Source of the DNA: an uncultured Prevotellaceae bacterium
Lineage (GTDB): Bacteria > Bacteroidota > Bacteroidia > Bacteroidales > Bacteroidaceae
Assembly: GCA_947169245.1 (NCBI GenBank)
Contig: CAMVPA010000006.1
Location: 27,440-91,439, forward strand
Direction of reading: 5' to 3'
Length of the DNA stretch: 64,000 nucleotides
Below the pieces are notes generated by a model, which worked only from the letters and a program-made list of their open reading frames with translations, did no database searches and had not been told where the DNA came from. How positions within the stretch are numbered: position 1 is the stretch's first letter; every line of letters starts with the position of its first letter. The translations under genes were made by a program, and so were the position numbers. Below are positions 5,881 to 64,000 of the stretch, piece after piece.

Positions 5881-6349
5881 AGGTGTTTAGCAAAAAAACG
5901 GGGGTACTCATTACGGCTAACAACATGTGAATTAGGACATAAACGGTAATGGGCGAAAATCTTCGCTTTCTGAGGTAAACAGGGAAAAGACACACACTGC
6001 GTAACATGTGACATGTGACATGAAGCGTTTTTCGGAAGTGTTAAAATCAACAATTTTTATACATTACACACTATCTATAATATATTATATATAATATATT
6101 ATAGATAACATATCGTCTGACTATTCCTGTCACATGTCACATGTCACATGTCACATTCTGCTTCCGCAGTAAAATCGAGAAAGTATAAAATATTAATACA
6201 CCAAAACGAAACGTCAACACGTGTTAAGTATGTTAACGCCCGCTCGGCGCTTTACATTTATTAACGCAATTTGCTGAGGGGGGCGATAGGGGGTTGCTGA
6301 CTGCCAAGCGCTGTTGCCAGTCAAAATGTGACAGGAAGCGAAAGGCGTG
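5881..6349. repeat. Gene-poor repeat region with TGTGACATG units and a 36-bp palindrome
   Basis: I see no convincing gene here. The unit GTAACATGTGACATGTGACA occurs at about 6001-6020 and again at about 6393-6412, each followed by a GAAGCG sequence. An inverted array of TGTCACATGTCACA units lies at about 6128-6156. Between them, 6072-6107 is a perfect 36-bp AT palindrome. CCGCAGTAAA appears at about 6164 and 6364. The short open frames here are low-complexity and overlap one another, so I treat the stretch as non-coding. Arrays like these could be protein-binding sites or remnants of an element. Confidence 0.6.
6072..6107. repeat. 36-bp perfect AT palindrome
   Basis: The half site TATCTATAATATATTATA is followed directly by its exact reverse complement with no spacer. 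It is flanked by inverted arrays of TGTGACATG repeats about 50 bases to the left and 20 to the right. It could extrude as a cruciform or bind a dimeric protein. Confidence 0.8.
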
Positions 6350-46023: not shown

Positions 46024-48918
46024 CTACTTCGAGAACAACAGGCGGCCGTCGGGGGTGACTCCGGCGGCGCTTATTTTAATGCGCGTCTCCTTGCCGTTGT
46101 TATAGAAAGTGGTGATGAAACGGCCGTTCTCGTCGGTACGGGCGTTGGGGTTCCAGTAGAGCGTACGACGGTAGTCCTCGGGACGTTCGCCGACAGGACG
46201 GCGGCTGTAGTCGGGCTGGTAGAAGTCGGCAGCCTCGTTCATGCCGTGGAAGTAGATGTGGCGGTCGCGGAAGACCACCTGCTTGCCGCCGTCGGCAATG
46301 GGTACCATGTCGACCGTCATATCGGCGATATACTTACCCTCGACAATCGTGGAGTCCTCCTTACGCGGTTCGTAGTCGCTATAGATGCGCACGTCCTGCA
46401 GACGAGCCAGCAGCAGGTTGTCATAAAGGGCCTGTGGCGAGCGTTTCCTGTCGAACTCCTTTATCTCTGCGGCTATATCTGCCGACGCATTCGTCATACT
46501 GCCCGTATTGTCGTAGTTACGCCAGTAGACCTGGCCGTCCATGCGTCCGTCGATATTGATCTTCGTGTGACGTCCCATATTGCCATAGAGGAAGATGGCC
46601 ACCTGCTGCGGGAACATGCGCATGTCATACCTGCCATACGACAGGCCGTAGTCCGTCAAGTCGTTATACAGGTCGTAGGCATCGCGCACGAAGGCGGGCT
46701 TCGTCCAGTCGGTGGCGCGACGACCGCGGCGACGGCCCTTCACGTCGACGTTGCGCAGCTGGTGGACGTCGTTCTCCATTGACAGCAACGACAGCGTATC
46801 GACCTCTTCCATCGACGGGTCCCAGTCGGGGGCATGGTTCTGGTAGAAGTTATATTCCTCGGTGAAGACGGGATAATGCATGTCACGCTTCACGTAGTAA
46901 TCGGCGAAGGCCTCCTCGCGGAACACCTCCTTGTCGCCGCGTGCCGTCATGGCCTTGCGCAGGGAGTCTTTCTCTTTGTAGGCCTTGAGGTTCAGATAGG
47001 TGGTGCCATAGAACGGCGGTATCTCAAAGACGAAGCGTCCGCCGTCGTGGGTCTTCTGGACTGCCGCCACCATGCCGTCCTCGGTGTAGACCTCGGCCTC
47101 GACCATCACCTCACGGCGCATGCCGCGGTGGTTGATGCCGATGACTGACCCTACATCCTCGGTCAGCGAACCTATGTCGGTGATGTCCGTCGTCCCACTG
47201 TCGGAGCCGTAGTCTTCCGACGTCTCCGTGTCACTCTCCTCGGTCAGACCTGTATCCACCATAGACCTGCTCTTGAACGCATTTGTGCCACCTGTGAAGC
47301 GACCCGACGCCCACTCGCCAACCTCAGCAATTCCCATAGGTTCCTCGATAGGCATGTCGCCGACTGGTACAAGACTGAGCATCTTATAGACGGCGCCACT
47401 GACGGTCATCGTCGTCTCGGGCTGGAACTGGGGCACGAAGGCGGTGTCGGCCAGCTCCTTCCACTTATACTTGCGCCAGCCCTGCACCATCATCAGAATG
47501 TCGAGATTACGGCGGTGCTCCTCGTCACGGCTCTCGAAGTAGTAGGCGGGACGGGCAATGAAGCCGCGCAGTTCACTGCTCAGCAGCATCGACGTCATGA
47601 TGTTGCCGTCGTCGTAGGTCGGCTCGTCGGTGCGCGTATCGCGGACGGCCAGTGAGAAGGTGGTCTCAGGCGTCGGCAGCTGCAGACCGATGGTAATGGA
47701 GTCATAGGGGGAATAGGTGGTGGTAGCCTTAAGGGCATTGATGCCCTCAATGGGAACAATATTGGCCCCATTAGTCCCATTAGTCCCATTAGCCCCATTA
47801 GTCCCATCAACGAAGAACAGTCTGTCGGCCAGTATCTGGCCCTCGCTGTCGAAAAGTGTTACGTCGTTGACACCTGCGGGCAGGCTCTCGAAGGGCAGGG
47901 TGATAGTGAGTGGTGAGTAGGGAGTGGTGAGAGAGGAAAGGGGAACCTCTTCGAAATGCTTCAAGGCACCACGACAGAGCACGGAGACAGCATACTGCCG
48001 GTCCTGAGGCAGATTGCGGCCCACGATATTGAGGCGATTGCCGCTTAGGGTCATGACGGCGCCGCTCTTCTCGGCGTTCGGCAGGTTGAAGCTATAGTTC
48101 TTGCCACGCCACAGGAAACGGGCTTCCAAACGGTGGCTTCCAGGGGTCACGTCAAACTGGCCGCGCCCCATATAAACCGTGCTGATATCGGCAACCTTAC
48201 TGTTGCCGTCCCACACTTCGCCACGGATATTGACCACCTCACCGTTCTGGTCGACAGCCTCGAAGGCCACACGGCTCTGCAGGCCCTCGACCATCGTGCC
48301 GCCTTCTGGATAGAAGGTGACAAACAGCTCTTCCTTCTTAGGCTTCGGCAGGCGGGTCTTCGGACGCTGGTAGATGCGGCGCAGGTCGTAATCGCCGGGA
48401 GCGTCAGGCTTGCTGTAGACAGGCAGCACACGCGAGTAGAGCCCATCCCACAGACGGTAGTAGTCCTCAGCCATCTTACGGTTGTAGAAGGCCCAGCTGT
48501 CGTCTCGGCTGAAGCGGTGCTCGCGCTGGTTGAAGTTGAGGTTCCAGCGCGTGTAGGCACGCAGCTCGTAGTAGCCGGAGTAGAGGGAGTCACGCAGTGC
48601 AAACTGTCCGCAAGTATAGCCGTCGGGCGACACGATGATGTTCTGTCTTTCCACAAGCAGTCCGTCGGGCGACAGCAGCTCGACATAGAGGATGCGGCTC
48701 ATGTCGGTGGGCTTCAGGTTGTCGGCACGTACGACATAGGCTTTGTACCAGAGGGTGTCGCCAATAAAATAACACGTATTGTCGGTATGGATATAGACCT
48801 TCTCCTGCACTTGTGTGACGGACGACTGCTCCAGGGCTTGGCGAAGATCTACGAGGGAGCCGGCACTGCCTATGACAGTGGCCAGAAGGAATATCAGCGA
48901 AAAGAGGGTACGGTTCAT
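46024..48918 (-). CDS. MG2-domain surface protein with plug-like region, 964 aa
   Basis: The ATG at 48918 gives MNRTLFSLIFLLATVIGSAG, a signal peptide; a longer frame upstream runs into the dnaA terminator hairpin and is rejected. Residues about 35-130 (VYIHTDNTCYFIGDTLWYKA) form the macroglobulin-type MG2 domain of Bacteroidetes surface proteins. A beta-rich region follows, then a TonB plug-like stretch in the last 250 residues (NMGRHTKINIDGRMDGQVYW). A run of NGTNGTNGAN-type repeats near residue 370-385 is encoded by the 9-nt repeat at 47764-47808. The function is unknown; it could be a periplasmic or outer-membrane partner of TonB systems. It lies directly after dnaA but is separated from it by a hairpin. 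Confidence 0.75.
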   Translation of the reverse strand: MNRTLFSLIFLLATVIGSAGSLVDLRQALEQSSVTQVQEKVYIHTDNTCYFIGDTLWYKAYVVRADNLKPTDMSRILYVELLSPDGLLVERQNIIVSPDGYTCGQFALRDSLYSGYYELRAYTRWNLNFNQREHRFSRDDSWAFYNRKMAEDYYRLWDGLYSRVLPVYSKPDAPGDYDLRRIYQRPKTRLPKPKKEELFVTFYPEGGTMVEGLQSRVAFEAVDQNGEVVNIRGEVWDGNSKVADISTVYMGRGQFDVTPGSHRLEARFLWRGKNYSFNLPNAEKSGAVMTLSGNRLNIVGRNLPQDRQYAVSVLCRGALKHFEEVPLSSLTTPYSPLTITLPFESLPAGVNDVTLFDSEGQILADRLFFVDGTNGANGTNGTNGANIVPIEGINALKATTTYSPYDSITIGLQLPTPETTFSLAVRDTRTDEPTYDDGNIMTSMLLSSELRGFIARPAYYFESRDEEHRRNLDILMMVQGWRKYKWKELADTAFVPQFQPETTMTVSGAVYKMLSLVPVGDMPIEEPMGIAEVGEWASGRFTGGTNAFKSRSMVDTGLTEESDTETSEDYGSDSGTTDITDIGSLTEDVGSVIGINHRGMRREVMVEAEVYTEDGMVAAVQKTHDGGRFVFEIPPFYGTTYLNLKAYKEKDSLRKAMTARGDKEVFREEAFADYYVKRDMHYPVFTEEYNFYQNHAPDWDPSMEEVDTLSLLSMENDVHQLRNVDVKGRRRGRRATDWTKPAFVRDAYDLYNDLTDYGLSYGRYDMRMFPQQVAIFLYGNMGRHTKINIDGRMDGQVYWRNYDNTGSMTNASADIAAEIKEFDRKRSPQALYDNLLLARLQDVRIYSDYEPRKEDSTIVEGKYIADMTVDMVPIADGGKQVVFRDRHIYFHGMNEAADFYQPDYSRRPVGERPEDYRRTLYWNPNARTDENGRFITTFYNNGKETRIKISAAGVTPDGRLLFSK
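47764..47808. repeat. 9-nt minisatellite (AATGGGACT family) in the MG2 gene
   Basis: Five units of CCCATTAGT or CCCCATTAG on the plus strand, read on the minus strand as GTNGANGTNGTNGAN. Same family as at 51968, 57780, 58222 and 58345. Confidence 0.9.
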
Positions 48919-48965
48919 CGTTACAGTTTTTGTATATGACGAACAAAGGGCAGGAAGGTTTAATC

Positions 48966-48990
48966 TATGCTGCGATAATATCGCAGCATA
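48966..48990 (-). terminator. Hairpin after dnaA
   Basis: TATGCTGCGATA, one base, then its exact complement TATCGCAGCATA; the first arm starts 8 bases after the dnaA stop. There is no long T run, so it may be a stabilising or weak terminator. Confidence 0.6.
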
Positions 48991-48998
48991 CAGGGACA

Positions 48999-50408
48999 CT
49001 ACTTCTTCAGCTTGAAGGCATTCTCGATGCTGGTGAGCTCGTCGGAGAAGGCCTTGTCCACCTTCAGACGCTGCTCCACGGTAGAGCAACTGTGAATGAC
49101 GGTGGAATGGTCGCGGTTGCCAATGAGCTGTCCGATGCGCGAGGCGGGCATCTTCGTGTATTTCTGGGCGAAGTACATCGAAATCTGACGTACCTGAACA
49201 AGGTCGTGCTTACGGCTACGGCCGAAGACGTGCTGCGGACTGACATTGAAGTGGCTGCACACCGTCTCCAGAATATCGTCAATGGTGAGTGGCTTGTTGT
49301 CGACCTTCACGGCACGCTTGATGACACGCTCGGCCAACCTCATGTCGACAGCAGAGTTATAGACAATCGAGTAGGCCAGCAACTGGTTCACCACACCCTC
49401 GAGGTCGCGGACGCTGCCGTTGGCGGTTTCGGCGATGAAATCAATGACGTTGGCGGGAATCTTCAGACCGTCGCGGCGGCACTTGGCGTTGAGAATGTCG
49501 ATACAGAGCTTCGGATTGGGCTTCTCCAACTCGGCAATGAGTCCGCAGGAGAAACGGGTCAGCAGACGGTCTTTCACGCCCTCGAGGTCGACAGGCGGCC
49601 GGTCGGAGGCCAGAATAATCTGCTTGCCAATACGGAACAGGTGATCGAAGATGAAGAAGAACGTGTCGAGGGTCTTCGGCGACGTGGCCCACTCCTGGAT
49701 GTCATCGACGATAAGCACATCAATGCTCTGGTAGAAGTTGATGAAGTCGTTGGTCGTGTTATGACGCACGGCATCGGTGAACTGCACCTGGAAGAGTCGG
49801 GCACTCACGTACAACACGCGCTTGTGCGGGTACATTTCCTTACACTTCAGGCCAATGGCGTTGATGAGGTGGGTCTTTCCACAACCCGACGGTCCGTAGA
49901 GGAAGAAGGGATTGAATGTCGACTTGCCCGGATGCTCGGCTATGGAGAGGCCGACGGTACGGGGCAGCTTGTTGGAGTCGCCCTCAATAAACGAGTTGAA
50001 CGACTTATGCACATCGAGCTGCGGGTCGAGGTCGCTGGGAGCAGCATCAAGCATCGTCGGAGCCTTATTGCCACGAGTCGTGGGCTGCAGCGTATTAATG
50101 AACGTAGGGCCATCACTACCCAACTGCGTTGTCAGGTTATGCTCCTTGTCGGTGACGACACGGTAGCGCAGGCAGATGTTGGCCTTGAAGCTGTTGGTCA
50201 GGGCCCAGTACATCAGGCGCACATAGTGTTGCTCCAGATACTCACAGAAGTAAGCACTCGGCACCTGCACGAGGAGAGTGGCATCGGCCTCCGAGAACGA
50301 CTCGAAGACGATGGGCTCGAACCACGTTTTGTATTGCTGCTCCGAAACGTTCTGCCTGATGAGTTGAAGACAGTAATCCCAGAGCGCCTGATGTTGTTTG
50401 CTTACCAT
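48999..50408 (-). CDS. dnaA: Chromosomal replication initiator protein DnaA
   Basis: The ATG at 50408 starts MVSKQHQALWDYCLQLIRQN, the usual DnaA N-terminus; an earlier TTG start is unlikely. Domain I (about 1-75) contains TWFEPI. The AAA+ domain (about 120-330) has Walker A GPSGCGKTHLINA and Walker B VLIVDDIQEW. The C-terminal domain IV ends with the DNA-binding signature GNRDHSTVIHS. DnaA binds 9-mer boxes at oriC and opens the duplex with ATP. At 469 aa it is a normal length. The region upstream, 50409-50685, has a weak GAACTTTG -7 box but no visible cluster of TTATNCACA boxes, so no origin is called. Confidence 0.97.
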   Translation of the reverse strand: MVSKQHQALWDYCLQLIRQNVSEQQYKTWFEPIVFESFSEADATLLVQVPSAYFCEYLEQHYVRLMYWALTNSFKANICLRYRVVTDKEHNLTTQLGSDGPTFINTLQPTTRGNKAPTMLDAAPSDLDPQLDVHKSFNSFIEGDSNKLPRTVGLSIAEHPGKSTFNPFFLYGPSGCGKTHLINAIGLKCKEMYPHKRVLYVSARLFQVQFTDAVRHNTTNDFINFYQSIDVLIVDDIQEWATSPKTLDTFFFIFDHLFRIGKQIILASDRPPVDLEGVKDRLLTRFSCGLIAELEKPNPKLCIDILNAKCRRDGLKIPANVIDFIAETANGSVRDLEGVVNQLLAYSIVYNSAVDMRLAERVIKRAVKVDNKPLTIDDILETVCSHFNVSPQHVFGRSRKHDLVQVRQISMYFAQKYTKMPASRIGQLIGNRDHSTVIHSCSTVEQRLKVDKAFSDELTSIENAFKLKK

Positions 50409-50460
50409 ATGAGTTAACAATCGCTTAGGTTACAAGTTATGACTTCCTAATTTGCGAGTG

Positions 50461-50468
50461 CAAAGTTC
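50461..50468 (-). promoter_or_regulatory. Possible -7 box (GAACTTTG) of dnaA
   Basis: Minus-strand GAACTTTG differs from TAnnTTTG by the first base; an ATTGAAAAAAAA tract lies upstream. It would give a leader of about 45 bases. Confidence 0.35.
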
Positions 50469-50685
50469 GCACTTTTTTTTCAATCCTGCAAATCCAAGGA
50501 AATTGAACAGCAAGATGGTTTCGCACGTAACTGACTATCTGACGGGCTTTTAGAATGTTTCACGAAAAAGCATACTCCTACCGCCGCTTGCAAAATCCGA
50601 AACACCTGACTATCAGTCGCTTGTACCAACATTCGCACGTCTCTTTTGCAGGAAATACGCGCGCTTCTATTTAGACAAAATAAAA

Positions 50686-51585
50686 TTACTTATCTTTTTT
50701 GCCAAACAGTGAGAAGTGCACATAACGCTTCGGATGCCCCTTCAGATCGATGATGAGTGAGTCGGCATGGCTCATGGTCGACGACAGATGATGGTACAGC
50801 TGCTGATCACGCATGAGGAGTCCCAGCGTACCGTCGTTACTGTTCAGTTTGGCGGTCAGCTGCTCGACATTATAAAGAGTGGTATTGACGCTGGCCATGG
50901 TGGCAGCTATGTCGAGGTCGCTCAGGTTCTTCGTCAACGTTCCCGTATTAGCCAGCACACCATCAGCCTTCTGCATCAAGTTGGGCACCTGATGGTTCAG
51001 ACTGGACGTCAGCTGATGCAACTCGGCGGTGGTAGTGGTCAGTCCTGCCGTAATCTGCTCTACGTTGTGGAGCGAATGGCTGATTGTGGGATCGGCGAGC
51101 AGCGCATTGACGCTGGCCAGAATGGAGTCGAGCTTAGGCAGCATGCCCTCTATCTGGGGAATCATCTCTGCGGCCTTGCCCAAGGCGCCTAACTCCAGAC
51201 CGCCATTGATGGTGTCGCCGGGAGCCAGCCGGGCCGACGTGGCACCAAGGCGCAACTCCAGCTTGACATTGCCGAGCAGGTCGCTGCTGATCTCTGCCGT
51301 CGTGCCCTCGGGCAACCACATATCCTTATGAATGCCTATCACTGCAATGATGTCATTAGGCTGATCATAGTCGTAGTTGATACCCTCGACAACGCCCACC
51401 TTATAGCCATTGGCATAGACTGGGCTGTTGGCCGACAGTCCACTGACATTGCCAAAGCGCACGCAGTAGCTGTTATTGGACGAGAATATGGACAGTCCCT
51501 TCAGGAACTGCATGCCGAAGAACAACACTACGATGGCTATAACGGCCACCAGACCTATCTGGACTTCTTTGGTAAAGTATTTCAT
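50686..51585 (-). CDS. MCE/MlaD family lipid-transport protein
   Basis: The ATG at 51585 gives MKYFTKEVQIGLVAVIAIVV with an N-terminal membrane anchor (about 9-28). Residues about 35-120 form the MCE domain (VRFGNVSGLSANSPVYANGY, KVGVVEGINYD, LLGNVKLELRLG). The remainder is helical with predicted coiled-coil segments (LLADPTISHSLHNVEQITAG). MlaD-type proteins form rings that move phospholipid between inner and outer membranes. The gene follows the amidase on the same strand, an arrangement I associate with Bacteroidales; the ABC partners (MlaE/F) are not next to it in this window. Confidence 0.88.
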   Translation of the reverse strand: MKYFTKEVQIGLVAVIAIVVLFFGMQFLKGLSIFSSNNSYCVRFGNVSGLSANSPVYANGYKVGVVEGINYDYDQPNDIIAVIGIHKDMWLPEGTTAEISSDLLGNVKLELRLGATSARLAPGDTINGGLELGALGKAAEMIPQIEGMLPKLDSILASVNALLADPTISHSLHNVEQITAGLTTTTAELHQLTSSLNHQVPNLMQKADGVLANTGTLTKNLSDLDIAATMASVNTTLYNVEQLTAKLNSNDGTLGLLMRDQQLYHHLSSTMSHADSLIIDLKGHPKRYVHFSLFGKKDK

Positions 51586-51610
51586 CTCTTGTTGTCTTTT
51601 TCTTTTCGTT

Positions 51611-51664
51611 ATGTCAGAATCTCGCAATGTCGGAATGTCGAAATGTCGTTATCTCGAAATCCCG
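51611..51664. repeat. CGAAATGTCGTTATC-type repeat between amidase and MCE genes
   Basis: AATCTCGCAATGTCGGAATG and TCGAAATGTCGTTATCTCGA form a run of degenerate 8-9 base units. It matches, in inverted orientation, the cluster at 45970-46022. Confidence 0.6.
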
Positions 51665-51666
51665 AC

Positions 51667-52935
51667 TTATCGTTTCCTTTTTCGCCATTCTGCGATGGCG
51701 GCATTGACATCCATCTTCTCGCTGCCACGGAAGGCAATGACGAAGGCACCTGGGAACTTACTGGCAAGCTCGCGGCGAAGGCGCAGAATCTCATTATAGT
51801 CGGTAGTGGCGCCGACGGTGTACTTATAGAGACCGCCCTCCTTGTAGAAGTCGGCGTCTTTCTGGCCTTTCAGCTGCGGGTTGCCGGCCTTCAGCTGGCG
51901 GTCGCTGGCCAAAATCTGTACCTTGAAGACCGGGGCGTCCGTAGCCGCCGGCGTCTCCAGAGGCCGGGCCCCATTGGGCTCATTAGCCCCATTAGTCCCA
52001 TTGGGCTCATTAGCCCCATTAGTCCCATTGGGCTCATTAGTCCCATTGGTCCCATTGGTCCCATTGGCCCCATTAGTCCCATTGGCCCCATTAGTCCCAT
52101 TAATCCCATTGGCCTTTTCCGCCTCCGGCGTTGTCTCAGGCTTATACGGCACCTTTATTATACTGTTCAGCTTGCCGCGATAGGCCATGAAGGCGTTGAA
52201 GATGCCACGGGCATAGGCATATTCGGCCTCGTTAGAGTTCAGGTAACGCTCCTCGTCGGGTGTCGAGATGAAACCCAGCTCCAGCAGACAGGCTGGCATC
52301 GACGTCAGGCGCAGCACGGCGAGATTGTCCTGATGGACACCCTGGTCCTGGCGGCCAGTGGCCTGACAGACATACTTCTGCATCATCTTGGCCAGCTGGA
52401 CGCTGTTCTCCATATTCTTGTCCTGCATCAGCTCGAAGAGGATGTTGCTCTCAGGCGAGTTGGGGTCAAAGCCCTCGTAGTGCTGTTGATAGTCCTTCTC
52501 ATAGAGGATGACGGCATTCTCGCGCTTGGCCACCTCGAGGTTCTCGATATAGCCCTTGCGGTTGCCGTCGCGACGACTGCGGCCCAGCGTGTAGGTCTGG
52601 TAGCCGCGGGCAATCTTCTTACCCGGCAGGGAATTGATATGGATGGAGATGAAAAGGTCGGCCTTGGCTTTGTTGGCCACCTCAGCACGCTGCCACAACT
52701 CCAGGAACCTGTCGGTGGTACGCGTGTAGACAACCTTCACGTCGGGACACTTCTGCTCAACGAGCTTGCCAAAGGCCAAGGCGTGTTTCAGCGTCAGGTT
52801 CTTCTCCTTCGACATCGTGCCTACGCAACCCGGGTCATTGCCTCCATGTCCGGCGTCAATGACCAGCGTAAAGGTCTTGGCGGCACTCACAGGCACCACC
52901 AGCCCCAACATCAATATAATCAATATCCTTCTCAC
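51667..52935 (-). CDS. N-acetylmuramoyl-L-alanine amidase with SPOR-like domain
   Basis: A GTG at 52935, one base after the folB stop, gives a clean signal peptide (RRILIILMLGLVVPVSAA); an in-frame ATG at 52965 overlaps folB and is the alternative. The Amidase_3 domain (about 15-250) starts FTLVIDAGHGGNDPGCVG with the first Zn-binding His and Glu region, and DLFISIHINSLPG carries another Zn-binding His; LTSMPACLLELGFIS holds the catalytic Glu. After a linker of about 50 residues of NGT/NGA/NEP units, the C-terminus (FKVQILASDRQLKAGNPQLK) resembles a SPOR peptidoglycan-binding domain. It cleaves the stem peptide from MurNAc, in cell separation or turnover. Confidence 0.92.
   Translation of the reverse strand: MRRILIILMLGLVVPVSAAKTFTLVIDAGHGGNDPGCVGTMSKEKNLTLKHALAFGKLVEQKCPDVKVVYTRTTDRFLELWQRAEVANKAKADLFISIHINSLPGKKIARGYQTYTLGRSRRDGNRKGYIENLEVAKRENAVILYEKDYQQHYEGFDPNSPESNILFELMQDKNMENSVQLAKMMQKYVCQATGRQDQGVHQDNLAVLRLTSMPACLLELGFISTPDEERYLNSNEAEYAYARGIFNAFMAYRGKLNSIIKVPYKPETTPEAEKANGINGTNGANGTNGANGTNGTNGTNEPNGTNGANEPNGTNGANEPNGARPLETPAATDAPVFKVQILASDRQLKAGNPQLKGQKDADFYKEGGLYKYTVGATTDYNEILRLRRELASKFPGAFVIAFRGSEKMDVNAAIAEWRKRKR
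51968..52112. repeat. 9-nt minisatellite in the amidase linker
   Basis: About sixteen 9-nt units (CCCATTAGT, CCCATTGGT, CCCATTGGG and CTCATTAGC) are arranged in higher-order 27-nt blocks. On the coding strand they give NGTNGANEP-type repeats that link the amidase and SPOR-like domains. Confidence 0.92.
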
Positions 52936-52936
52936 T

Positions 52937-53287
52937 TCACTTTTTATGTAGTTCCACCGTGGCACCGCTACATTCGGCTCCCATCGGCGGGTTTTCCTTC
53001 GTCACCCACAGGTCGATGCTGGTAATGTCGGGGTGTTGTGTCTTGACGGCTGTGGCGATGCGACCGGCCACATGTTCGAGCAGTTGCGAGGGAATGGCCA
53101 TCTCGCGGCCAATCACTTGATAGAGCTCGGCGTAGTTCAAGGTGTCTTCCACCCGATCGGTCTTGGCAGCGCGGCTCCAGTCGTAGCCCACACGCAGAGT
53201 GACACGGTACCAGCCCCCCACCCTACGCTCCTGCGGCAGCACGCCGTGATAGGCATAGAAGCGCACCTCCTTTAACTCAATATACAT
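52937..53287 (-). CDS. folB: Dihydroneopterin aldolase FolB
   Basis: The ATG at 53287 gives MYIELKEVRFYAYHGVLPQE, the standard FolB start; a frame from 53305 adds MGAGAE and is unlikely. The family landmarks are the YAYHGVLPQE segment with the catalytic Glu, DTLNYAELYQVI and LLEHVAGRIA with the substrate-binding Glu, and a final VTKENPPM followed by the usual short strand. At 116 aa it is a typical length for the octameric enzyme. FolB converts dihydroneopterin to 6-hydroxymethyl-dihydropterin and glycolaldehyde in folate synthesis. The stop is one base before the probable amidase start, so the genes are coupled. Confidence 0.93.
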   Translation of the reverse strand: MYIELKEVRFYAYHGVLPQERRVGGWYRVTLRVGYDWSRAAKTDRVEDTLNYAELYQVIGREMAIPSQLLEHVAGRIATAVKTQHPDITSIDLWVTKENPPMGAECSGATVELHKK

Positions 53288-53304
53288 CTCGGCACCAGCC
53301 CCCA

Positions 53305-53358
53305 TTTCTCACTTCTCATTCCTCACTTCTCATTCCTCATTCCTCATTTCTCATTTCC
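53305..53358. repeat. TTTCTCATTCC simple repeat between folB and the RNR-like gene
   Basis: Degenerate 10-12 base units of CTCACTTCTCATTCCTCATT fill the gap and run into the last codons of the RNR-like gene. Confidence 0.7.
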
Positions 53359-53952
53359 CTCCGTGTCCTCGGACTCGGAATCGTGTGCTCCCGGCACGTA
53401 CTTCTTCAGAGCACGCTCCACACCGGTCTTCCACGTGTTGATGCTCTCGTCTTTCAGCGACAGCGAGGCCACCAGCTTGATGACGTGCTCGATGGGCATG
53501 CGATAGCGCAACACACCCGAGATGAGTTTGGCATAGTTCCAGTACTCGGGGTTGAACTTCTCCGATAGGCCCTCGACGGTGGTCTTGTAGCCGCGTTTGT
53601 TCTCGAACTGGAAGTCGTAGCGCTTCGTACCGTCGGGATTCACCTGCTTCAGTATTTTTCCTTTTGTCACCGTCTTGGGCAACAGGATGCCTTCCTCGTC
53701 GTCCTGCAAGCCAGTGAAAATCTCATAGGGATAGCCGTCGAGCAGTCCGACGAGCGCCACCCACTTCTCCTTATTATTCTGAAAACGCACAACGTCGCAC
53801 TCCAGCACCTGCGGACGCACCTCAGTAACGTCGGGCCGCTTGATGGGCATCAGAGCCTGCTGTCCCAACGCTTGCAGACGGCCAAAGACATCGGCGTCCA
53901 CCTGACCACGACAACTCTCCAACAATGCGCGAATCTCATCCTCAGTCATCAT
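53344..53952 (-). CDS. Stand-alone protein resembling the C-terminal region of B12-dependent ribonucleotide reductase
   Basis: From about residue 45 to 190 the protein follows the C-terminal region of class II ribonucleotide reductase (NrdJ) as I know it in Bacteroidetes: VVRFQNNKEKWVALVGLLDG, YEIFTGLQDDEEGILLPKTV, KRYDFQFENKRGYKTTVEGL, YAKLISGVLRYRMPIEHVIK and DESINTWKTGVERALKKYVP. The catalytic barrel and the final Cys-rich tail of NrdJ are absent. The first 45 residues are acidic and helical (MTEDEIRALLESCRGQVDAD). A perfect TAATTTTG box at 53982-53989 supports independent expression. It may be a regulatory or repair paralogue, or half of a split enzyme; the gene lacks any frameshift that would mark decay. 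Confidence 0.7.
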   Translation of the reverse strand: MMTEDEIRALLESCRGQVDADVFGRLQALGQQALMPIKRPDVTEVRPQVLECDVVRFQNNKEKWVALVGLLDGYPYEIFTGLQDDEEGILLPKTVTKGKILKQVNPDGTKRYDFQFENKRGYKTTVEGLSEKFNPEYWNYAKLISGVLRYRMPIEHVIKLVASLSLKDESINTWKTGVERALKKYVPGAHDSESEDTEGNEK

Positions 53953-53981
53953 AATTCCTCTGTTTAACGATTATTTGGCCG

Positions 53982-53989
53982 CAAAATTA
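53982..53989 (-). promoter_or_regulatory. Predicted -7 box (TAATTTTG) of the RNR-like gene
   Basis: Exact match to TAnnTTTG on the minus strand, about 30 bases before the ATG; T-rich sequence precedes it. Confidence 0.6.
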
Positions 53990-54021
53990 CAAAAAAACGT
54001 GCGAAAAACCAAAAAAAACAC

Positions 54022-54029
54022 TACCTTTG
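54022..54029 (+). promoter_or_regulatory. Predicted -7 box (TACCTTTG) of the nitroreductase gene
   Basis: Exact match to TAnnTTTG, 23 bases before the ATG at 54053, after an A-rich tract. Confidence 0.65.
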
Positions 54030-54052
54030 TGCCCAAAATCAAGAAGTGAAAG

Positions 54053-54820
54053 ATGAAAAACCTGCTAACACGCCGTTCCATACGCCGCTACGCCGACCGT
54101 GATGTCGACGAGCAGCTACTGAATCGCCTCATGACAGAGGCCAGTCGTACACAGACCATGGGCAACCTACAGCTCTACTCGGTCGTCGTCACCCGTTCGC
54201 CGGAGATGAAACAGAAACTGGCCCCGGCTCACTTCAACCAGCCGATGGTGACACAGGCACCCGTCGTCCTCACCGTCCTGGCTGACTTCAACCGCACCAG
54301 CACGTGGGCACGCTGCCGCAACGCCGAGCCCGGCTACGACAACTTCCTGTCGTTCATCAACGCCGCTACCGACGCACTGCTCTACACACAGACGCTCTGC
54401 AACCTCATGGATGAGGAAGGGTTGGGCTACTGCTACTTAGGCACCACCGTCTACCAGCCACAGCAGATCATCGAGCTGCTGCACCTGCCCAAGCTGACGT
54501 TCCCCGTAGCCACACTCACCGTCGGCTGGCCCGACGAGGAGCCAGCACTCAGCGACCGTCTGCCCCTTGAGGCCTTCGTCCATCAGGAGCGTTACGACGA
54601 CTATCTGGCCCTTGACATCGACCGCTACTACAGCGCCAAGGAAGAGTTGGAGGAGAACCGCAACTTCGTGCATATCAACCACAAAGAGACACTGGCACAG
54701 GTCTTCACCGACATCCGCTACACCCGCAAGGACAACGAAGCCATGTCAAAAAACCTCCTCGCCGCTCTCCGCCACCAAGGCTTCCTCCCCTATATCCTCC
54801 ACGAGACACCTCAGTTCTAA
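54053..54820 (+). CDS. Nitroreductase-family FMN oxidoreductase
   Basis: LLTRRSIRRYADRDVDEQLL is the nitroreductase N-terminal FMN phosphate-binding motif, followed by EASRTQTMGNLQLYSVVV. The middle DALLYTQTLCNLMDEEGLGY and the VATLTVGWPDEEPALSDRLP loop are typical of NfsA-like members, which are flavin- or nitro-compound reductases using NADPH. No signal peptide is present, so it is cytoplasmic. The length of 255 aa is normal. It lies 11 bases before the TPR-AraC regulator on the same strand and may share its transcript, though a metabolic link is not evident. Confidence 0.9.
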   Translation: MKNLLTRRSIRRYADRDVDEQLLNRLMTEASRTQTMGNLQLYSVVVTRSPEMKQKLAPAHFNQPMVTQAPVVLTVLADFNRTSTWARCRNAEPGYDNFLSFINAATDALLYTQTLCNLMDEEGLGYCYLGTTVYQPQQIIELLHLPKLTFPVATLTVGWPDEEPALSDRLPLEAFVHQERYDDYLALDIDRYYSAKEELEENRNFVHINHKETLAQVFTDIRYTRKDNEAMSKNLLAALRHQGFLPYILHETPQF

Positions 54821-54831
54821 CACCTTGCATC

Positions 54832-56535
54832 ATGCGAAGATTGTTCATCGTCATATGCCTGTTGTCGGCAACCCTCCTATGCAACGCGACCATCACGCTG
54901 CCCGACTCGATGCTTACCATCAAGAGTGCTTACAATGTAACCAATAGCGACACTTCGCTGGCCATCATCCAGACCATGCGCCAACGGCAGCTGGCCGAGA
55001 AGTGGCAGCTCGACATGGCCGAGGCCGACTACTGCTATGCCACGATGGACTACACCAAGGCGGTACGGCTCTATCAGGCTGTGTACGATAGCGGTGAGGC
55101 CAAGAGCGACGCCACCATCTATCTGGCGCTGCTCGCCCGACTGATGCAGACCCACGACATCATGTACGATGAGAACGAACTCGTCACCTATATGGTCGAG
55201 CTCAAGGACGCAGCCAGGCGCTACAAGAACGACGCCTATCTGGCGATGGCCGACTTCACCCTGGGCAAGCGCAAGCATTACCACCGCAAGAAGCAGGAAG
55301 GTCTGGAGATGTGCGCCAAGGCCGTCGAGGTCATGAAGGCCAGCGACTACTTCCGCAAATACAACGAGCTGTGCAGCAACTACACCGACCTGCTACAGAT
55401 GTACGCGGAGGACGGGCGCTACGACGACGCCATGCGCATGTCGCTGTTGCAGGAAGAGGCGGCACTCCGCATCAAAGGCGTAAGCGCCAACAACAAGGAG
55501 ACGCTACGCTACGTCTACGGCATGCGTGCCAGTCTGCTGGCCAAGGCCGGCCGCAAGGAAGAAGCCGACCGCGCCTACGACGAGTGGAAGAAGCAGGACG
55601 GCGGCAACGCTGTCGTCGACAGGCCCATCCTCGACTACCTTATTATATATAAGCACTACGAGCAGGCACGCGACATCATCCACGACTACTGCAACTTGCT
55701 CAGGAATCAGAAGGACAACTATTCCTACCGCATGATCACCATGCTCACGACGGCGGCGCAGGTGGAGACGGCACTGGGCGACACCAGTGCGGTAGCACGA
55801 CACAGCCGTGAGATCAAGGCCATTGCCGACAGCCTGCACATCGACAAGTCGTACAGCATGATGCAAAAGTCGTGGGACCTGATACGGACGGAGAAGGACG
55901 TGAAGCTGAAGAACTCCCTGGTGAGCATTTTAGGCTTGCTTTTGCTCTTCAGTACCGCTATCGGACTGATCATTCTATACTACAGCCGCCGCTTACGCCG
56001 CCGCAACGAGAAGCTGGTTAAGGCGCTCAACAGCGTCGAAGCCTACCGCAACATGGCGATGGGAGCCATGGAGTCCAGTTCTGAAGAACCGACAAACGTG
56101 GAGACAACGGGCAGCCCAGAGAGCGCCAAGGAGACAGCAGAAGCCAGCGAGACGATAGTCGACGAGAACGAGCGTCTCTTCGTGAAGCTCGACGGCCAGA
56201 TAACCCGCAACCGCCTGTTCCTCAATCCGAACTTCGGACGCGACGACATGGCCCGCCTCATCGGCGTCGACAAGAACCGCATCGGCCACATCATGTCAAG
56301 ATATTCCGACGCATCGAACGCCTCGGTCTACATCAACACCAAGCGTGTGGAGTATGGAGCGAAGCTTCTTTTGGAGCATCCTGAGTACACCATCGCCGCC
56401 ATCGCCAACGAATGTGGCATGACAAACACCGTCACTTTCAACCGCACGTTCAAGGAAGTTTACGGCATGACGCCCTCAGAATACCGCACCAAACCTCAAA
56501 AAAACCAAAAAGGCCTAAAATGGTGTGGGGAGTAA
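54832..56535 (+). CDS. Membrane-anchored TPR sensor with AraC-type DNA-binding domain
   Basis: A signal peptide (ends LLCNATI) is followed by a periplasmic helical repeat region of TPR type (about 25-350; YTKAVRLYQAVYDSGEAKSD and LLAKAGRKEEADRAYDEWKK are examples). A membrane helix (LGLLLLFSTAIGLIILYY) lies near 363-383, with a basic RRLRRR stop. An acidic linker precedes the C-terminal AraC helix-turn-helix (about 450-560; DDMARLIGVDKNRIGHIMSR and VTFNRTFKEVYGMTPSEYR). No kinase or receiver domain is present. It is the first gene before the DUF3575/fimbrillin cluster and is likely its regulator, sensing an envelope signal. The FimX or PilR type name cannot be assigned from sequence alone. 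Confidence 0.82.
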   Translation: MRRLFIVICLLSATLLCNATITLPDSMLTIKSAYNVTNSDTSLAIIQTMRQRQLAEKWQLDMAEADYCYATMDYTKAVRLYQAVYDSGEAKSDATIYLALLARLMQTHDIMYDENELVTYMVELKDAARRYKNDAYLAMADFTLGKRKHYHRKKQEGLEMCAKAVEVMKASDYFRKYNELCSNYTDLLQMYAEDGRYDDAMRMSLLQEEAALRIKGVSANNKETLRYVYGMRASLLAKAGRKEEADRAYDEWKKQDGGNAVVDRPILDYLIIYKHYEQARDIIHDYCNLLRNQKDNYSYRMITMLTTAAQVETALGDTSAVARHSREIKAIADSLHIDKSYSMMQKSWDLIRTEKDVKLKNSLVSILGLLLLFSTAIGLIILYYSRRLRRRNEKLVKALNSVEAYRNMAMGAMESSSEEPTNVETTGSPESAKETAEASETIVDENERLFVKLDGQITRNRLFLNPNFGRDDMARLIGVDKNRIGHIMSRYSDASNASVYINTKRVEYGAKLLLEHPEYTIAAIANECGMTNTVTFNRTFKEVYGMTPSEYRTKPQKNQKGLKWCGE

Positions 56536-56657
56536 AACCTTGACTACCAGACAGTTTGGACAAATTGTTTCATCTCGTGCGTATAAATTGTTCTAACAAT
56601 TAGACAATTTATTGACACATTTTCGCCCTTGCGCGTATTATTATTAAAGAAAATTCG

Positions 56658-56665
56658 TATCTTTG
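56658..56665 (+). promoter_or_regulatory. Predicted -7 box (TATCTTTG) of the fimbria-like operon
   Basis: Exact TAnnTTTG match, 34 bases before the DUF3575 gene, after an AT-rich stretch with ACAATTAGACAATTT repeats. Confidence 0.65.
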
Positions 56666-56699
56666 CGTTTTAAAAGAGATTAAAAACGGCAAAGAAGCG

Positions 56700-58334
56700 A
56701 TGAAAAAAGGCAGATTCATAGGGAAGATACTTGCAATCGGGGCAATACTTACATTGCTCTGCGGCACTGTTGGCGCCCAGCCTGCCTTGTCGGTCGACAC
56801 TTCCTTCTACAACAAATATCCCTACATCCGTTTCGTCTCGGAGGGTGACGCCACGAAAATGAGCGACGACGAGTTCTACGCCGTCGCCGCCAGAGTAGGT
56901 TTCGCCGTCAACCAGACAGAGCCGCCCGTTGGCGACCAGTTCCTGACAGAGCTGAAGAGCAGTGTTCTGCCACGCATCAATGCCGACAGTCTGGAGCTGG
57001 CCTATATGGTGGTGCGTGGCGCAGCCTCGCCCGACGGCCCTTATGAGAACAACAAGCGGCTGGGCGAGAAGCGTGCGGGCTGGCTCTTCGACTTCATCCG
57101 CCAACAGCTGCGGTTCCCGGTGAACGAGAGCAAGTTCTGCCTCGACAGCGAGGCCGAGGACTACCGTTCGCTCTGTCTCCTCATGCAGCGTGCCGGCGAT
57201 CAGGACCACGTCTTCGTGAAGCAGCTGTGCGACACCTATTTGCCTGAAGGCAATATTGCCCAACTGAAGACCGCCCTGCAGCAAGCACAGAGCGGCCTGC
57301 TATGGAAGCGGCTGAACAAGACCTACTTCCACCATCTGCGCACCGCCCGCGTCGTTCTCTACTTCAAGAAGTATGAAGGCGAGAAGCTTGAGATTGGTAA
57401 GATAGAGCAAGCGCCGGTGATAGAGACGCCGCCCGCGGTAGCACCGGCGATAGAGCCAGTGGTGGAGATGCCGACTATAGAGGTGGAGACACCGGTAGTG
57501 GAGACGATGCCTGTGGCAGAACCACCGGTCGCACAGGAGTGGCTGGCGCGCCGCGAGGTGCTGGCGCTGAAGACCAACCTGCTGTTCTACGGTGTCTACA
57601 TGCCGGGCTACAACCGCTGGTGCCCCATCCCCAACGTGGCGGTGGAGTACTTCCCCAAGAAGGGACACATGACCTTCGGCGCCTCGTTCGACATGCCCTG
57701 GTGGCAGGACTACGATGCCCATAAGTACTTCCAGCTCAGGAACTATCAGGTGGAGGCACGCTACTACCTGAAGACCCATGAGGCCAATAGGGCCAATGAG
57801 CCCTATAAGGCCAATGGGGCCTATGGGCCGCTATTTAGCGGCTTCTACCTCCAGGCCTACGCCAATGGCGGCGTGTTCGGCATCTGCTTCGATGCCGATC
57901 GCGGCTGGGTGGGCGAAGGGTTCGGCGTTGGTGTCGGTGCCGGCTACGTCATGCCACTGTCACGCAATGGGCACTGGCGACTGGAGCTGGGACTCCAGGC
58001 TGGCTACTTCCGCTGCAAGTACGACCCCTACCAGTATGAGAACCCCGTGGATCCGAGCTACAAGGACAACCTGTACTACTACAAGTGGAAGTCTGACCCG
58101 GACTTGTTCAAGAAGCGCCAGTACCGCTGGAATTGGATTGGGCCCACCCGCGTCGGTGTCACCCTGTCGTACGACCTGCTCTACAGAAGAATCCACAAGA
58201 AGGGCGTGAGCTTCAAGGACTATGAGACCAATGGGGCCTATGGGACCTATGGGGCCAATGGGGCCTATAAGGCCAATGAGACCAATGAGGCTAATGGGAC
58301 TAACAGGGCCCCAGAAAGGAGGGATCATGAGTAA
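56700..58334 (+). CDS. DUF3575 domain outer-membrane protein with OmpA-like N-terminal region
   Basis: The signal peptide ends GTVGAQ. Residues about 35-230 resemble an OmpA-like peptidoglycan-binding fold (VVRGAASPDGPYENNKRLGE with KRAGW). A Pro/Val/Glu-rich linker (PVIETPPAVAPAIEPVVEMP) leads to the DUF3575 beta-barrel (about 285-520; LALKTNLLFYGVYMPGYNRW). DUF3575 proteins occur next to fimbrillins in Bacteroidales and may anchor or assemble the fibre. Two in-frame 9-nt repeat tracts are present: ANRANEPYKANGAYG near residue 360-378, in a surface loop, and a C-terminal tail of about 30 residues (NGAYGTYGANGAYKANETNE). The stop overlaps the start of the next gene by 8 bases. Confidence 0.82.
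   Translation: MKKGRFIGKILAIGAILTLLCGTVGAQPALSVDTSFYNKYPYIRFVSEGDATKMSDDEFYAVAARVGFAVNQTEPPVGDQFLTELKSSVLPRINADSLELAYMVVRGAASPDGPYENNKRLGEKRAGWLFDFIRQQLRFPVNESKFCLDSEAEDYRSLCLLMQRAGDQDHVFVKQLCDTYLPEGNIAQLKTALQQAQSGLLWKRLNKTYFHHLRTARVVLYFKKYEGEKLEIGKIEQAPVIETPPAVAPAIEPVVEMPTIEVETPVVETMPVAEPPVAQEWLARREVLALKTNLLFYGVYMPGYNRWCPIPNVAVEYFPKKGHMTFGASFDMPWWQDYDAHKYFQLRNYQVEARYYLKTHEANRANEPYKANGAYGPLFSGFYLQAYANGGVFGICFDADRGWVGEGFGVGVGAGYVMPLSRNGHWRLELGLQAGYFRCKYDPYQYENPVDPSYKDNLYYYKWKSDPDLFKKRQYRWNWIGPTRVGVTLSYDLLYRRIHKKGVSFKDYETNGAYGTYGANGAYKANETNEANGTNRAPERRDHE
57780..57830. repeat. 9-nt minisatellite in the DUF3575 barrel
   Basis: GAGGCCAATAGGGCCAATGA and following units are read as EANRANEPYKANGAYGP. 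Same family as the repeat at the gene end. Confidence 0.85.
58222..58312. repeat. 9-nt minisatellite at the end of the DUF3575 gene
   Basis: About ten units (AATGGGGCC, TATGGGACC, AATGAGACC, AATGGGACT) add a low-complexity tail of about 30 residues. Its right end pairs with the reversed copy at 58345-58380 (see findings). Confidence 0.9.
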
Positions 58335-59514
58335 GCTGAGGAAGCTCATTAGCCTCATAGGCCTCATGGGCCTCATGGGCTGTAAGCCCGAGCCGCCGCT
58401 TCACCTCTACGACGGTGGCGACATCGATGTCACGCTGCCCACGGTGAAGCTCGACCTCGAGGCATACTGGGACTACGAGACCATCTACGGCATCTACAAC
58501 TGGCGCGCCGACTGGTACTATGGTTGGGACGAGGCCGACCAGGCACTGTTCGGCAACATCGGTTACACGGAGCCCGATGTGTTCATGATTCGCCGCTACT
58601 ACACCGGTTCGGAGGCCTACGTGCCACATACCAATGTCTACGCCGCCACCATCGTGGGCAACACCTTCCACGGCAAGTACAACTGGGGCTTCTGGGACAT
58701 CCTGGTGTGGAACGACGTGACGACGCCCGACGGTGTGCAGAGTCTGAACTTCGACGAGCAGACGTCGCTCGACTACGTGACGGCCTACACCAACCAGTCG
58801 ATGAGCCCTGCCCGCTACCAGGCTCCCCGCTACACCCGCGCCTTCTACCAGCCCGAGGAGCTCTTCTCTGCCTACGAACAGGGCATCGAGATCAACCGCG
58901 ACCTCTCGGGCTTCGTCTACGACCCAATAAATAATGTATATATAAAAAAATTGAACATGGTGCTCGAGCCCATCACCTACATATACCTGACGGAGGTCAT
59001 CCTGCATAACAACAATGGACGCATCACCGCCGTCGACGGTAACGCCAACCTCTCAGGCATGGCGCGCACGGCTGTAGTCAACACCGGTACTGCCGGCAAC
59101 GACCCCATCACCGTCTACTATCATGTGAAGTTCAAGAAGGACTGTGTCATCGTACCCTTCGGTACCCCTGCCGACGACCCCATACGCCTCACAGCCGAGC
59201 ATGTAGACATCGTCGGCGGCCGTCTGACCACCTTCGGCATGTGCGGACAGACGCCCCGTAACATCCACCATGCCAGCGAGGTGACCGACAACATCAATCA
59301 CTATATGGACGTGACGATGCAGTTCAACAACGGCATGGACTCCACCTTCGTGTTCAACGTGACCGACCAGGTTCGCGAGCACTGGAAGGGCGGCGTCATC
59401 CGCGTAGAGCTCGACTTAGACACCATCCCCATTCCCAGCCGTCAGGGCGGCAGCGGCTTCGATGCCGTGGTCAAGGATGTGGAGGACGGTGGAACATATG
59501 AATTTGACATGTAA
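58327..59514 (+). CDS. DUF5119-type lipoprotein of the fimbria-like operon
   Basis: The ATG at 58327 is preceded by AAAGGAGGG and overlaps the end of the DUF3575 gene, so translation is probably coupled. The signal peptide LRKLISLIGLMGLMGC ends in a lipobox with Cys 19. The mature part has DVTLPTVKLDLEAYWDYETI and FKKDCVIVPFGTPADDPIRL, and is a two-domain beta protein of about 375 residues, like DUF5119 proteins found beside Bacteroidales fimbrial genes (family call from memory). The hydrophobic core of the signal is encoded by reversed 9-nt repeat units (58345-58380). It is likely an outer-surface accessory or anchor subunit of the fimbria. Confidence 0.75.
   Translation: MSKLRKLISLIGLMGLMGCKPEPPLHLYDGGDIDVTLPTVKLDLEAYWDYETIYGIYNWRADWYYGWDEADQALFGNIGYTEPDVFMIRRYYTGSEAYVPHTNVYAATIVGNTFHGKYNWGFWDILVWNDVTTPDGVQSLNFDEQTSLDYVTAYTNQSMSPARYQAPRYTRAFYQPEELFSAYEQGIEINRDLSGFVYDPINNVYIKKLNMVLEPITYIYLTEVILHNNNGRITAVDGNANLSGMARTAVVNTGTAGNDPITVYYHVKFKKDCVIVPFGTPADDPIRLTAEHVDIVGGRLTTFGMCGQTPRNIHHASEVTDNINHYMDVTMQFNNGMDSTFVFNVTDQVREHWKGGVIRVELDLDTIPIPSRQGGSGFDAVVKDVEDGGTYEFDM
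58345..58380. repeat. Reversed 9-nt minisatellite encoding a signal peptide
   Basis: CTCATTAGCCTCATAGGCCT and CATGGGCCTCATGGGC are complements of the AATGAGGCT/AATGAGGCC units. They encode LISLIGLMGLMG, the hydrophobic core of the lipoprotein signal. Confidence 0.85.
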
Positions 59515-63854: not shown

Positions 63855-63888
63855 ATGCATTTTTGTTCCAGGCCGTGGAACAATTCTG

Positions 63889-64000
63889 CGGCAGCCCCCC
63901 AGACTCCTGCGGCGGCCCCTCAGACTCCAGCGGCGGCCCCGGAGAATCCTGCGGCGGCCCCGGAGAATCCTGCGGCGGCCCCGGAGAATCCTGCGGCGGC
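63889..64000. repeat. 21-bp GC-rich tandem repeat at the window edge
   Basis: The unit CCCCGGAGAATCCTGCGGCG plus G repeats about three times exactly and is preceded by two variant copies (CAGACTCCTGCGGCGG, CAGACTCCAGCGGCGG). One plus frame, open from an ATG at 63855, reads AAAPQTPAAAPENP; the minus strand is also open and reads PPQDSPG. The next gene may extend beyond the window. Confidence 0.8.

Follow-up and report, generated by a model that had tools for sequence, protein, structure and literature searches.

Why does one 9-bp unit appear in frame in several unrelated genes of a single bacterium, and is its spelling set by the proteins that carry it or by the DNA itself? The window, a stretch of 64,000 nt from the draft genome of an uncultured Prevotellaceae bacterium (G000; 2.93 Mb in 85 contigs, 75% complete), was described in a first-pass annotation as carrying a minisatellite at five places in four genes (MG2, amidase, DUF3575 twice and DUF5119). 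All five are real, both by pattern counts and by TRF, which recovers the same window arrays as our two-unit pattern and gives higher-order periods of 18 and 27 bp in them. The window has 8 exact copies of the unit AATGGGACT (shuffles: mean 0.49, maximum 4). With up to three mismatches allowed, the two-unit pattern gives 45 matches (shuffles: mean 3.66, maximum 10), of which 38 lie within 47764-58377 and 7 in the rest of the window. The material throughout consists of draft assemblies, with ORFs called by length alone.

Two of the host genes lie on the minus strand and two on the plus strand. The MG2 array (47763-47807, minus strand) has 5 units, read DGTNGANGTNGTNGA, in the gene of an MG2-domain protein (46024-49089, minus strand) whose MG2 score is under the Pfam cut-off. 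The amidase linker array (51966-52118, minus strand) has 17 units, read NGT/NGA/NEP, in an Amidase_3 protein gene identified by domain match (51667-52965, minus strand). The DUF3575 protein gene (56700-58334, plus strand, domain match) carries a loop array of 6 units (57778-57831, plus strand), read HEANRANEPYKANGAYGP, and a C-terminal tail array of 10 units (58222-58311, plus strand). Finally, in the DUF5119 lipoprotein gene (58327-59514, plus strand, domain match), 3-4 degenerate units at 58341-58376 (plus strand) form the hydrophobic core of the signal peptide, MSKLRKLISLIGLMGLMGC. The exact units that the annotation had placed in this signal peptide do not occur there; it holds their degenerate relatives ATAGGCCTC and ATGGGCCTC instead.

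Over all copies, the unit is best given as A-T-R-R-G-N-C-Y-N (AT-RRGNCYN), a self-complementary class. Both strands read alike because the class with Y at position 9 equals its own reverse complement. The annotation took NGT/NGA/NEP linkers from one strand and the hydrophobic LIGLMG from the other. LIGLMG is also a shifted frame of the same strand, and it is readable from both strands because of the self-complementarity of the class. Among 206 units from G000, A1, T2, G5 and C7 are conserved at 96.6-99.5%, percentages inflated by the admission of units with at most one mismatch and biased upward by array detection relying mostly on the grammar itself. Positions R3, R4 and Y8 vary via transitions, position 6 accepts all bases, and just 8 of the 206 units have G at position 9, self-complementary arrays having been entered on both strands.

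The repeat extends far beyond the window. A three-unit pattern, with overlapping matches counted, gives 97 forward and 114 reverse matches in G000 and 0 for a mirrored control; the further copies across the genome that the annotation expected are thus present, and since its units follow one another head to tail with a constant period at numerous loci, the repeat is a minisatellite. Single units are near chance, both in G000 (128; mirror 116, shuffled 159) and in nine stretches from non-carriers (132; mirror 131, shuffled 141). Runs of at least two AT-RRGNCYN units occurred in carriers' stretches only, among those sampled, the G000 stretches having been picked for arrays and one genome taken as a non-carrier (G034) having one match elsewhere.

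Distribution among relatives is patchy. In the genus, the three-unit pattern is found in 78 of 299 genomes including the window's, with 1 to 1381 matches each, and is missing from the other 221; for high-quality congeners the figures are 26/130 with a match and 104/130 without. In the order, 7 of 295 genomes (again including the window's) carry it, and besides G000 only G545 and G591 exceed one match. In the phylum, counts from the matches listed give 19 of 198 genomes including the window's, the other 18 carriers all falling within the 43 genomes of one family; none of the 48 other genomes of that family's class has the pattern. We take this family to be green sulfur bacteria because the FMO protein was found in 8/8 of its genomes tested (0/3 others, 0/14 controls). 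Two congeners, G096 and G121 (stretches L133-L144), have more than 1000 three-unit matches each, and an intergenic gap at L137 19223-19359 holds 15 mostly near-identical units.

The window repeat is one of at least three tandem, self-complementary 9-bp families that differ between lineages. The mirrored control pattern proved to be a genuine second family in other congeners, mainly TCNGARTAN as read in six genomes picked for having mirrored matches; it has at least one match in 62 of 299 genus genomes. A third family, TARRGNCYY, was found in 18 of 100 genus genomes. The class ATYYGNCRR occurs in 2 of 100 congeners, with 3 matches in total, and its mirror in none of the 100; ATYYCNGRR gave only stray matches in the genus genomes scanned. 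Since ATYYGNCRR is nearly absent, not every self-complementary class is in use. On a DnaA tree of 34 genomes, the 8 carriers (at least 6 matches each) need at least three changes against the genomes of the second family, and therefore neither the carriers nor the second-family group forms one clade.

One answer to the opening question is that the peptides are under selection and that the NGT linkers, like the LIGLMG signal peptides, converge at the protein level. In its favor, amidase linkers elsewhere show other 3-residue periods and signal-peptide arrays are retained in an orthologous operon. Against it stands the choice of codons. To avoid circularity, triplets were defined by the peptide rule [NYHD][GEKR][TAPS] alone, with at least three in succession, which gave 62 triplets across seven host genes. 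In 61 of the 62 the first codon has T as its last base, and in 61 of the 62 the third has C or T there. Gly is spelled GGG in 34/34 cases as against 5% elsewhere in the same genes, and Asn AAT in 36/37 as against 30%. For arrays defined at the DNA level in 12 host genes, signal peptides included, the Ile codon ATC is used 1 time in 23 (65% elsewhere) and the Leu codon CTG 2 times in 31 (54% elsewhere). Array codons are thus unlike the preference of the very genes that contain them, and the DNA rule is identical across reading frames, on both strands and in gaps between genes. The spelling is set at the DNA level and not at the protein level. We consequently rejected a peptide-level origin on codon usage and gap arrays, and the green sulfur bacteria, with their arrays that lie outside ORFs, largely refute it; we regard convergence of peptides as highly improbable. 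In other species, amidase linkers (P0006-P0100) have periods such as PEK, QEP and MSQ, which are perhaps further grammars.

We then asked where the arrays sit, using 23 arrays from the window and from ten stretches picked for having arrays. Eighteen lie mainly within ORFs, in linkers, loops, tails and signal peptides, ORFs being defined by length alone and that of L044 being possibly an antisense artefact. Three are entirely in gaps, two of them flanking ftsZ (one in the ftsA-ftsZ gap) and one before butyrate kinase, and a fourth array ends on the gcvPB start codon. Within proteins, arrays fall between matched parts of a MurF-Alr fusion (residues 620-650), between the Y_Y_Y and HisKA domains of a hybrid sensor kinase (residues 814-826), and between the membrane and ATPase domains of an ABC transporter (residues 317-336). 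Signal peptides built from the repeat are found in DUF5119 and in an adhesin-like operon of two species, and the signal peptide in L071 is built from the second family. The host genes are unrelated, and the units sit in frame in them, in several reading frames. The earlier description of the repeat as "tolerated as protein" is supported, the arrays sitting where proteins can absorb steps of three residues; proteins absorb the inserts because a 9-bp unit spans three codons and, under the rule, four of the six frames stay open or almost open. In the green sulfur bacteria, by comparison, 19 of 22 arrays, from 20 stretches picked for arrays, are outside ORFs, and 10 of these are between convergent ORFs. 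In the adhesin-like operon (L046 3834-12000, and the orthologous L188 of the relative G022), two consecutive genes have repeat-built signal peptides of about 45 residues.

Comparison of single sites indicates how the arrays change. At the MG2 site, G000 has 5 units and G022 has 5 differing units, while 5 other relatives have no array and a protein shorter by 12 residues; among these, G023 has the AT-RRGNCYN family elsewhere. G022 lacks the DUF3575 tail array, and its DUF5119 orthologue also has the signal-peptide array. At the DUF3575 loop, at least two rule-fitting triplets (range 2-11) were found in 14 of the 39 homologues examined, of 120 listed, on the basis of peptides only. Copy number varies among near-identical proteins at the two loci for which one database protein each was compared, at the peptide level: the amidase linker has 16 N-G/E-x triplets in the window and 12 in P0001 (97% identical), with a 27-bp block occurring once more in the window than in the compared array, and the DUF3575 tail has 10 units against 9 in P0121 (98% identical). 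The first-pass annotation had named two outcomes as fatal to its reading, a lack of copies elsewhere and a fixed copy number; copies exist elsewhere, and copy number is not fixed among near-identical database proteins. From the MG2, DUF3575 and amidase sites, it follows that arrays are long-lived at some sites and that their length changes by whole units.

Conserved sites raise the possibility that the arrays are selected by the host, as multivalent sites for a dimeric DNA-binding protein acting in chromosome organisation or regulation, with the fixed bases under purifying selection. When orthologous arrays from two species are set side by side, A1, T2, G5 and C7 differ in 3 of 72 comparisons and the free positions in 42 of 90. 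This covers 18 units at three sites of equal length (a fourth, unequal pair was left out), and the requirement that a unit match the rule at 8 of its 9 positions favors such a result. The dyad symmetry of the rule, the near-fixation of four bases beside much varied free positions, and the retention of some sites over deep divergence all agree with host selection. Note that this between-species retention fits host selection equally well as the explanation that we prefer, and counts against the latter to that extent. On the other side are the patchiness among related species (no three-unit match in most high-quality congeners), the copy-number differences between near-identical proteins, the placement in tolerant parts of genes and the lack of excess of single sites. 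On balance, we consider host-selected arrays rather unlikely.

Do the arrays move? On contigs C1-C11 of G000, 15 of the 23 listed arrays lie within 2.5 kb of another, compared to a mean of 2.3 and a maximum of 12 in 5000 random placements, for which the lengths of three contigs were guessed. Neighboring arrays share longer strings (reached by 13 of 5000 shuffles, and by 21 of 5000 after length correction) and are alike in composition (48 of 5000). Over all pairs of arrays, long shared strings show no clear excess (5 pairs with at least 20 bases; 3.1 and 5.2 in two kinds of shuffle), so that the evidence for copying is local only, and whole-array copying between distant loci was rejected on this near-shuffle count. 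The annotation had seen a mobile or template-copied repeat: clustering and neighbor likeness suggest local copying, while genome-wide template copying is unsupported, given the lack of a clear excess of long strings and the retention of some sites. Each genome also has its own dialect over unrelated loci. Among 109 loci of 15 genomes, a typed subset of the matches listed, 52% of the variance lies between genomes (permuted mean 13%, 0/2000 permutations reaching it).

In G000 (distances 2.28 within and 2.72 between arrays) and in G022 (2.85 and 2.88), units of one array differ nearly as much as units taken from separate arrays, and in G096 and G121 the units of an array are much alike (1.48 and 2.48). 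Identical neighboring units number 11 of 125 in G000, with 2.8 expected from shuffling the pool, and neighbors differ in 114/125 cases in G000 and in 32/32 in G022. The identical neighbors in G000 and the alike units in G096 and G121 indicate that plain duplication is also at work. A combination of short-range spread with a rule that preserves certain bases fits these data best; duplication within arrays happens, and block copying across the genome was not seen.

Would plain slippage suffice, acting on hairpin-forming repeats that began as chance seeds and without any trans-acting factor? It would accord with the self-complementary class, the copy-number differences, the 18- and 27-bp higher-order periods and the closer likeness of units within arrays in G096 and G121. 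Yet in four array sets no excess of Watson-Crick pairs was found about either the N dyad or the AT dyad, and hairpin pairing as a driver is unsupported by this lack of covariation. Moreover, separate lineages reach the same degenerate motif while a different self-complementary class hardly occurs, and 221 of the 299 genus genomes lack any three-unit AT-RRGNCYN match. Plain slippage as the whole account is therefore improbable in our estimation.

Insertion sequences would offer another route, in which repeated insertion and excision duplicates a preferred 9-bp dyad target. The targets of Tn10 and Tn5 are 9-bp odd dyads in which degenerate R/Y positions surround a central N, and the repeat has the same period of 9, odd dyad, central N and degenerate flanks; the excess of identical neighboring units in G000 agrees as well. 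Against such footprints, no PF01609 transposase is present in G000, G153 or G320, draft assemblies being prone to lose such elements; most neighboring units differ; and the two amidase arrays are four units apart in length, a 27-bp block occurring once more in the window. We hold this origin to be very doubtful. More broadly, PF01609 matches are absent in these 3 of 11 carriers and number 1-4 in the other 8, compared to 3 to 39 in near-complete non-carriers. An IS4-type transposase was set aside as a driver since it shows no association with carriers. C5 methylases were likewise set aside, being no commoner in carriers: among green sulfur bacteria they occur in 3/8 carriers and 7/16 non-carriers, and in the genus in 7/9 carriers and 5/6 non-carriers. 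The annotation had called for a protein that binds or copies the repeat, and none was found among the two families searched, PF01609 transposases and C5 methylases.

The explanation that we favor, and to which we give about an even chance, is that these are in-frame and gap 9-bp families that likely spread over short range, with a spelling held by a putative sequence-specific factor and not by selection on peptides. Arrays would lengthen and shorten as whole units or unit blocks slip, and new ones would be seeded mostly near existing ones. The putative factor may recognise the dyad, namely the G-N-C core, the flanking R and Y and the AT spacer, and may favor rule-obeying copies through biased repair or biased duplication. 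A wider form of this, which we put forward tentatively, is that some Prevotella and some green sulfur bacteria have a sequence-specific activity on DNA that generates a dyad 9-bp tandem grammar and keeps it up, that lineages switch grammars (AT-RRGNCYY, TA-RRGNCYY, TA-YTCNGAR), and that in-frame inserts, even new signal peptides, may be by-products of a DNA drive.

Among known systems, the STRR heptamer repeats of cyanobacteria are likewise short tandem units at many loci; their 7-bp unit breaks the frame whereas 9 bp keep it, and they are not known to follow a dyad rule. Rickettsia palindromic elements are palindromic, lie in frame in unrelated genes and are tolerated as extra peptide (PMC10969869). 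The window repeat resembles them in its in-frame placement within genes of unrelated kinds, and it does so in several frames. Unlike these ~150-bp elements, it is a 9-bp tandem unit that follows a degenerate rule, no element ends were seen, and the lack of clear excess of long strings between arrays gives no sign of a discrete shared element of ~150 bp. HIP1 and the alternate HIPs of cyanobacteria are short palindromes, others taking their place in some genomes, and methylation-dependent mismatch repair has been proposed as their maker and keeper (PMC4390886); for a change of palindromes from lineage to lineage they come closest as a precedent. They differ in being frequent single sites, whereas in the present case lone units are near chance and tandem runs alone stand out; nor do C5 methylases follow the 9-bp arrays. 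The BrickBuilt MITE of Porphyromonas gingivalis is also a tandem minisatellite repeated over a Bacteroidales genome, with a 23-bp unit, an always intergenic location and leader and tail ends (PMC4596501). The present family, by contrast, has a 9-bp unit and is often inside genes, and no such ends were seen. No description of these 9-bp families appeared among the literature hits listed.

The repeat gives a clear bacterial case of a DNA-level rule overriding codon preference inside genes, at places that include conserved enzymes (MurF-Alr, ABC transporter), signal peptides and the ftsA-ftsZ gap, and such families are a natural source of in-frame protein variation. Since congeners have other grammars and green sulfur bacteria share this one, looking for the driver becomes tractable by comparison.

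Other short repeats were observed along the way. The window has 7-bp tandem micro-repeats of TGTCACA, AGTGAAG and CATTTCT (6128-6156, 9205-9304 and 53303-53357), and similar 7- and 8-mers are common in stretches of related genomes. Tandem arrays of 22 bp, whose unit resembles a palindrome with a short variable spacer and differs in sequence per species, lie at L042 63-145 and 7166-7262, L130 3908-4015 and 12380-12482, L126 1428-1514 and L132 14065-14136. On viral contigs, searched with a narrower pattern, the regularly repeated matches among those listed may be collagen-like coding repeats. Finally, a 21-bp tandem repeat occupies 63882-64000, at the end of both the window and contig C6. Read on the opposite strand it would give SGAAAGF, which is also the peptide repeat at the start of contig C3 (L046 1-289), so the two contigs may be neighbors.
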